DNA of 64,000 bases, taken from positions 62,001 through 126,000 of the forward strand of contig NZ_ML974128.1 of the NCBI RefSeq assembly GCF_004765815.2, written 5' to 3'. The notes under the pieces were generated by a model. The model saw only the letters and a list, made by a program, of their open reading frames with translations, was not told where the DNA came from and searched no databases. This document shows positions 13,205 to 39,891 of this stretch, piece after piece. The position numbers and the translations under genes were made by a program. Position 1 is the stretch's first letter; each line of letters begins with the position of its first letter. The DNA is from Halorussus salinus. Its GTDB lineage: Archaea > Halobacteriota > Halobacteria > Halobacteriales > Haladaptataceae.

Positions 13205-13350
13205 GCAGGAGACGTTTGACCGTTCGTACCGAAGTGGGTTTCGGTACGTGCGTCCCCACTCGGTGATTTTTCTCATCCGCCGGGAAAATTCGGTCGGCGT
13301 CGCGGCGGTGGTTAACCCGGAGACCGCGACGCCCGTCTCGTCGCCGAGGA

Positions 13351-13357
13351 TTTATAT
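13351..13357 (+). promoter_or_regulatory. TATA box of candidate ncRNA copy 1
   Basis: TTTATAT stands out in GC-rich sequence, 30 bases before the first conserved ncRNA block. The same spacing is found at the second copy (TTTAAAT at 39729), supporting a real archaeal promoter. Confidence 0.65.
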
Positions 13358-13380
13358 CCGAGACCGGAACGAATCCCGCT

Positions 13381-13500
13381 CGGACGTTTCGCGCAGTCAC
13401 GGGCAGATAGCTGGCGGGTCAGTCAGCAGTGTCGTCGGGGTCGAGGTCGCCGACCCCTCACCTCGGGACTGCCAGTCCGACTACCCCGAGAGGGCTGAGC
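13381..13500 (+). ncRNA. Candidate structured ncRNA, copy 1 of a two-copy family
   Basis: This stretch shares with 39759-39856 the blocks CGGACG(T/C)T(T/C)-like start, CGCGC, GTCAGTCA then CAGTGTCG, GCCAGTCCG, and TACCC.GAGA.GGCTGAGC, while the arms between them differ. The differences keep pairing: CGGAC 13381-13385 with GTCCG 13475-13479; GCAGTC 13393-13398 with GACTGC 13467-13472; GCTG 13410-13413 with CAGC 13424-13427; plus an extra hairpin GGGGTCG 13437-13443 with CGACCCC 13451-13457. It has its own TATA box and lies convergent to the cyclophilin gene. No coding potential. I do not recognise the family; exact ends are estimates. Confidence 0.6.
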
Positions 13501-22017: not shown

Positions 22018-22471
22018 AGCCACGAGAACGACCGGAAACGGCGTAAGCGTTGTTCGAAACCTCGCCGAACGAGTACGACGAGACTCGTGACGACCGGTGA
22101 GACTCGGCAAATGGGGCGACGACGGTGACGGCTGGAGAGAGGGCGACGACGGACGGGACTGCGACCAGCGACGGACACGCGCCGAGTTGGTCGCGGTCTC
22201 GTATTTGAACGTTCGCCCGACGCGGTACGTCTTCGCACACCACCGTCGCGGATGAAGACGGGCGGCCAGCCCGCTATTGGAGTGATTATACATTTCCTAA
22301 GCGTCGCTTCATACCAGTTAGAGACTGCTACAGTTATCTTCCCTTCTATCTGCTCGTCCATTTGTCCACCCGGCCGACGAACGAGAAGACCGACTTCTCA
22401 CCCAACCGGAGACGAGACGGACCTGTCGCCCAACCGGAAACGATACGGCCTGCGGTGACGCAGTTTCGGGT
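22018..22471. other. Intergenic region upstream of the CBS-domain gene
   Basis: No gene is evident in these 454 bases. An AT-rich patch sits at about 22275-22350 (ATTATACATTTCC), which may hold a promoter. A direct repeat of CCCAACCGGA(G/A)ACGA occurs at about 22400 and 22431 shortly before the CBS gene. Confidence 0.55.
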
Positions 22472-39728: not shown

Positions 39729-39735
39729 TTTAAAT
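39729..39735 (+). promoter_or_regulatory. TATA box of candidate ncRNA copy 2
   Basis: TTTAAAT lies exactly 30 bases before the first conserved ncRNA block, the same distance as TTTATAT at copy 1. Confidence 0.65.
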
Positions 39736-39758: not shown

Positions 39759-39856
39759 CGGACGCTCCGCGCGGTCGTACCGAGGGAGTTGACGAGTCAG
39801 TCAACAGTGTCGATGACCGTACGACCGCCAGTCCGGATACCCTGAGAAGGCTGAGC
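39759..39856 (+). ncRNA. Candidate structured ncRNA, copy 2 of a two-copy family
   Basis: The shorter member of the pair with 13381-13500. Helices are CGGAC 39759-39763 with GTCCG 39831-39835; GGTCGTAC 39773-39780 with GTACGACC 39819-39826; GTTGAC 39788-39793 with GTCAAC 39800-39805. Shared unpaired blocks are CGCGC, CAGTGTCG, GCCAGTCCG and TACCC.GAGA.GGCTGAGC. The second helix is an unrelated sequence from that of copy 1 yet pairs perfectly, which is strong support for RNA structure. It lies between a plus-strand microgene and convergent trpG. Ends are estimates. Confidence 0.62.
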
Positions 39857-39891
39857 CAAATCACGACACTACCGAGCCGCCAGCGATGGGT

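Follow-up and report, generated by a model that had tools for sequence, protein, structure and literature searches.

Two stretches of DNA, each preceded by a TATA box, raise the question of whether they are paralogous functional RNAs and, if so, how such RNAs may act. The window, which is the whole stretch of 64,000 nucleotides analysed here, comes from a Halorussus genome of 4.75 Mb in 11 contigs. The initial annotation had described a two-copy family of structured non-coding RNAs (ncRNAs) with compensatory base changes. From the sequence comparisons given below, the two stretches are almost certainly members of a real family of predicted structured ncRNA genes.

Two related loci in the window

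Direct reading found the shared blocks in identical order in both stretches and bore out the placing of a TATA box ahead of each, with CGGAC following TTTATAT and TTTAAAT by 24–30 nt. The helices described as different in sequence and paired in both copies were also present. The pair GCAGTC/GACTGC of copy 1 (13393–13398/13467–13472) has its counterpart in copy 2 as GGTCGTAC/GTACGACC (39773–39780/39819–39826), the hairpin GCTGGC-loop-GTCAGC of copy 1 corresponds to one of different sequence in copy 2, and CGGAC/GTCCG occurs in both (39759–39763/39831–39835 in copy 2). When the window was searched with the 3' block CAGTCCGACTANCCNGAGANGGCTGAGC, allowing up to three mismatches, exactly two matches were obtained, which are the two copies (0.00 expected from shuffles). 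The features are listed below, where R1 is a covariance model derived from 11 aligned copies of this genome, copies 1 and 2 included.

13345..13357 (+): BRE-like CGAGGA and TATA box TTTATAT (TATA at 13351–13357) of copy 1; from sequence, same position in family alignments
13358..13380 (+): promoter spacer with the conserved motif CCGARRMCGGGACSAA, predicted start at about 13379–13381; from alignment A4
13381..13500 (+): copy 1, predicted ncRNA, long form, tRNA-Leu/peptidylprolyl isomerase locus; R1 E=1.4e-19 (model built partly from this copy)
13381..13385 (+): P1 5' strand CGGAC, partner 13475–13479; from MAFFT alignment and RNAalifold
13393..13403 (+): P2 5' strand GCAGTC A CGGG, partner 13462–13472; from covariation
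13410..13427 (+): copy 1 hairpin GCTGGC-GGGTCA-GTCAGC, optional apical domain; from covariation (helix 3)
13437..13457 (+): copy 1 second apical hairpin, variable, GGGGTCG...CGACCCC; from sequence, differs among copies
13475..13479 (+): P1 3' strand GTCCG; from MAFFT alignment and RNAalifold
13485..13494 (+): copy 1 P3 hairpin CCC-GAGA-GGG; from covariation (helix 4)
13495..13500 (+): copy 1 conserved tail CTGAGC; from family alignments
39729..39735 (+): TATA box TTTAAAT of copy 2; from sequence
39759..39857 (+): copy 2, predicted ncRNA, long form, ribonucleotide reductase/trpG locus; R1 E=6.5e-20 (model built partly from this copy)
39788..39805 (+): copy 2 apical hairpin GTTGAC-GAGTCA-GTCAAC; from sequence and covariation
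39841..39850 (+): copy 2 P3 hairpin CCT-GAGA-AGG; from sequence and covariation

The BRE and TATA elements of copy 1 agree with the haloarchaeal promoter elements of PMC4983044. Two blocks that had been taken as unpaired were reassigned: TACCC.GAGA.GG corresponds to the P3 hairpin, whose pairs covary, and GCCAG spans the last bases of P2, a junction of 2 nt and the first bases of P1. The copy 1 locus has an orthologous site in five other genomes and the copy 2 locus in nine.

Family alignments placed a BRE/TATA promoter of its own ahead of each copy, followed by the conserved spacer; where an insert separates P1 from P2, as in two copies, the promoter is found farther upstream. Leaderless protein genes of this and further haloarchaeal genomes also have the spacer motif TACGARRMCGGGACSAAC right behind the TATA box, immediately ahead of the probable start codon (window 22183–22216 on the minus strand; L151, L152, L154, L156, L158, L160 and L161). 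Judged by sequence, the motif seems to represent a promoter type additional to BRE/TATA/-10 WW.

Fold and covariation of the family

The family fold runs in the order P1, P2, to which an apical domain may be added, P1', a short linker, P3 as a hairpin and the tail C(T/C)GAGC. P1 is CGGAC/GTCCG across the family, and the 5' junction after it consists of G and a few bases, often YTTCG, with room for extra hairpins (present in copies L015, L018, L064 and L065). P2 comprises 6–11 bp, whose pairs covary strongly. An apical domain is present in long forms and made of a 6-bp hairpin with a GAGTCA-type loop and then a variable second hairpin, and short forms have a plain loop at the P2 tip. The 3' junction provides a final A ahead of GTCCG, and TA is nearly always present in the linker before P3. 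The P3 loops within Halorussus are mostly of the GNRA type (GAGA, GAAA, GCGA); the helix is often longer in other genera, and its covarying pairs include TCC/GGA and CCG/CGG.

Compensatory changes in these helices, together with an own promoter, are the marks of a structured ncRNA family. In a MAFFT alignment of 11 own-genome copies, which was unfitted to structure although the structure itself was hand-drawn from the same sequences, 90.5% of cells are paired, and both sides are changed in 22 cells, against 6.0 in shuffles. RNAalifold independently predicts P1 and P2 from this alignment, with covariation in 7 of 15 pairs. An alignment of 70 sequences, fitted to the model and thus biased towards its structure, had 96.4% of cells paired, changes on both sides in 16 of 25 pairs and 140 double-change cells (24.5 in shuffles); within it, 98.7% of cells were paired in helix 3 (the apical hairpin; three pairs changed on both sides) and 97.1% in helix 4 (P3; 3/3 pairs). 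Double changes were well above both shuffles and slid controls. Covariation looked for between the 5' leader and the tail was absent. Folded singly, copy 1 had a z value of -0.77 and copy 2 one of -2.47; these are unremarkable, and the evidence for structure therefore comes from comparison among copies.

Additional modules were observed at a few loci. A second, nearly exact P3 and tail module (GACTAACCCGAAAGGGCTGAGCCAA) lies ∼120 nt downstream of the RNA at L050, in one genome, and the copy at the trm1 locus (L016) is followed by two degenerate tandem repeats of this module. The own-genome (G000) copy at locus L015 (L159, G000:C2:29018-29263) has an insert of roughly at least 100 nt between P1 and P2 that holds further palindromes, with its promoter intact upstream.

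Copies, distribution and inheritance

R1 detected 13 copies in the own genome, two of them within the window, so that "two-copy" was an undercount; BLASTN of copy 1 against this genome likewise returned further full and partial copies. Although trained on the own genome only, R1 also found copies in 16 further Halorussus genomes, with E-values down to 4e-21. Across 18 genomes of the genus there were 4–14 copies in 16, one copy in one and zero in one. Ten genomes of two sister genera yielded zero R1 copies. A class-wide R1 search returned five weak matches, all beside the same aminotransferase gene as own-genome copy L014, and these are taken as true relatives because the shared locus gives independent support; where both sides were read, the other side held an ArsA/GET3-type ATPase gene in two other genera.

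For distant searches we used the promoter-containing covariance models R2 and R3, because cross-genus MAFFT alignment of RNA-only sequences misaligned P1 with P2. The promoter lowers their specificity, and matches were counted only at E<=1e-9. At this threshold, 31 of 391 Halobacteria genomes, from 10 genera and five families, contained the family, and the other 360 had zero matches. The nine genera besides Halorussus have 1–2 copies per genome, many of them at the aminotransferase/ATPase locus as judged by eye from the flanks. Matches below ∼40 bits, among those read, mostly fitted only the promoter of a leaderless protein gene; all were left out of the count. One genome with only one clear full copy (G012) also contains the 5' half of a family member with an intact promoter (L237), possibly a decaying copy by its sequence.

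Homologs are thus present in other haloarchaeal genomes, as a covariance-model check had been expected to reveal for a real family, and no already described class was matched: the Rfam 15 covariance models gave zero matches at gathering score and zero at E<=1. To our knowledge, covariation supports few archaeal ncRNA families besides guide, SRP, RNase P and tRNA-like RNAs. No description of the family was found in the papers searched, among which Halorussus and small RNA occurred together only in one CRISPR review. As far as these papers and the Rfam comparison reach, the family is previously undescribed; 22 unassigned conserved ncRNAs of Halobacteria are listed in a halite metatranscriptome (PMC7002113). 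The view that the two stretches are paralogous functional RNAs, and neither repeats nor protein genes, is supported by covariation in dozens of sequences, promoters, conserved positions, the lack of coding signal and the lack of an Rfam family.

The positions of the copies were grouped into side- and strand-aware communities, single-linkage synteny clustering having been dropped as too loose. The ∼110 loci fell into 16 conserved-position groups with 2–16 members each, most of them in at least four genomes. About 14 positions are conserved across Halorussus species, and one, at the aminotransferase gene, is common to Halorussus and other families. Such conservation across species indicates that the copies were inherited in place and are not mobile repeats.

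In their apical sequences, copies within a genome are often closer to each other than orthologs are. For 32 of the 97 copies, against an expectation of 7.8, the closest apical sequence belonged to another copy of the same genome, as compared with 15 when measured by the core and 9–10 by the flanks. The effect is strong in genome G002, where one GC-rich tip is common to most copies; in G000 and G009 the tips are on average no more similar than background. As the simplest reading, these sequence patterns suggest that P2 tips have been made uniform within some genomes by gene conversion. Intermolecular gene conversion has been reported from the haloarchaeon Haloferax volcanii (PMC11276520).

Mode of action and alternative readings

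Identifying the neighbours of the copies can narrow the mode of action. Copy 1 lies by tRNA-Leu and peptidylprolyl isomerase and copy 2 by ribonucleotide reductase and trpG, while other copies adjoin trm1, cytidine deaminase (cdd)/uridine phosphorylase or pyrB/phosphatase genes. The downstream gene is convergent for 11 of the 13 own-genome copies and co-oriented for two (the trm1 and uridine phosphorylase loci). Since neighbours differ and downstream genes are mostly convergent, a leader or riboswitch role is unlikely and a role in trans is favoured; from this arrangement, the family members probably act in trans. The P1-linker-P3-tail core is common to all copies, for which a shared binding partner is the most economical explanation. 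Our best explanation, to which we give a probability of about 0.5, is that of a trans-acting ncRNA family whose main mode would be the binding of one shared partner, probably a protein, by the fixed core.

Base-pairing regulation is a possible but doubtful alternative, in which the exposed loops (the apical GAGTCA, the TA linker and the CTGAGC tail) would pair with mRNAs and each copy would have its own targets. The conservation of single-stranded segments fits this, as do the Haloferax sRNAs with regulatory phenotypes, sRNA132 (PMC6560208) and s479 (PMC8155600); the conserved parts are, however, mostly short or structured, and the copy-variable P2 tip turns uniform within some genomes instead of being kept distinct. 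The present copies are predicted to be stand-alone intergenic RNA genes like sRNA132 and s479 of Haloferax volcanii, but those have been reported individually and not as a covarying multicopy family.

It is unlikely that the RNAs form a stable housekeeping RNP, such as a 6S-like or processing RNA, and are not regulators. Multiple copies, a fixed core and variable peripheral helices recall RNP RNAs, but the distribution is patchy; unless divergent copies escape the models, the lack of the family in most haloarchaeal genera speaks against an essential housekeeping function. A cis action on the convergent neighbour, through antisense or terminator-like structures, would fit the prevailing gene orientation; it is improbable, given that the RNA core is constant though neighbours differ completely between copies, that each copy has its own promoter and that a U-run after the RNA is absent.

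Archaeal guide RNAs are many, span 60–150 nt and have paralogous scaffolds, and the guides are stable, so the family resembles them as small paralogous archaeal RNAs. A guide for rRNA or tRNA modification is nevertheless very improbable, as the diagnostic boxes and any Rfam match at E<=1 are lacking: 2 of the 106 members had both box C (RUGAUGA) and box D (CUGA), with 0.99 expected from shuffles, which speaks against box C/D sRNAs, and P1 is followed by ACT in 93 of 106, which leaves no ACA box for an H/ACA sRNA. A MITE- or REP-like palindromic repeat spreading through genomes would explain the many dispersed copies, the palindromic tips and the tip sequences common to several loci within a genome, but it is hardly tenable against positions that are occupied in many species and in several families, a paralog similarity over the downstream 100 nt (mean 0.620) at background (0.616), and the covarying helices and promoter of each copy, which bacterial REP elements and MITEs do not share. 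A small protein-coding gene was rejected, as 48 of 106 members have no closed ORF and the spacing of the P1 strands runs through all three phases, against a conserved reading frame.

The shared-partner explanation may be put together as follows. The predicted stand-alone structured ncRNA genes, each behind its own BRE/TATA promoter, are inherited vertically at conserved positions. A single partner, for which an RNA-binding protein is the likeliest candidate, would bind to the nearly invariant core of P1, junction, P3 and tail, and all copies would thereby supply the same RNP or titrate the same regulator. The tip of P2 would be under little constraint and tolerate hairpin insertions, gene conversion would even out the tips within some genomes, and Halorussus would have raised the dose to 4–14 copies in most species.

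The closest parallels are CsrB/CsrC and RsmX/Y/Z, which titrate CsrA/RsmA: these, too, are several dispersed paralogs, each with its own promoter, in which a fixed motif sits in a variable scaffold, and their copy numbers differ between species. The present family differs in being archaeal and in its fold and sequence, and its partner is putative. More speculatively, the family may be a multicopy RNA class that forms a complex with, or titrates, a single RNA-binding protein; it would parallel in archaea the global riboregulators of CsrB or 6S type, with lineage-tuned copy number and conversion-homogenised tips.

Most Halorussus species have several paralogs per genome, orthology between species is clear and the members span ten genera; the function of the family is therefore open to testing, as all copies should share a partner. 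The family further offers a small natural system in which gene conversion between dispersed haloarchaeal loci can be followed.
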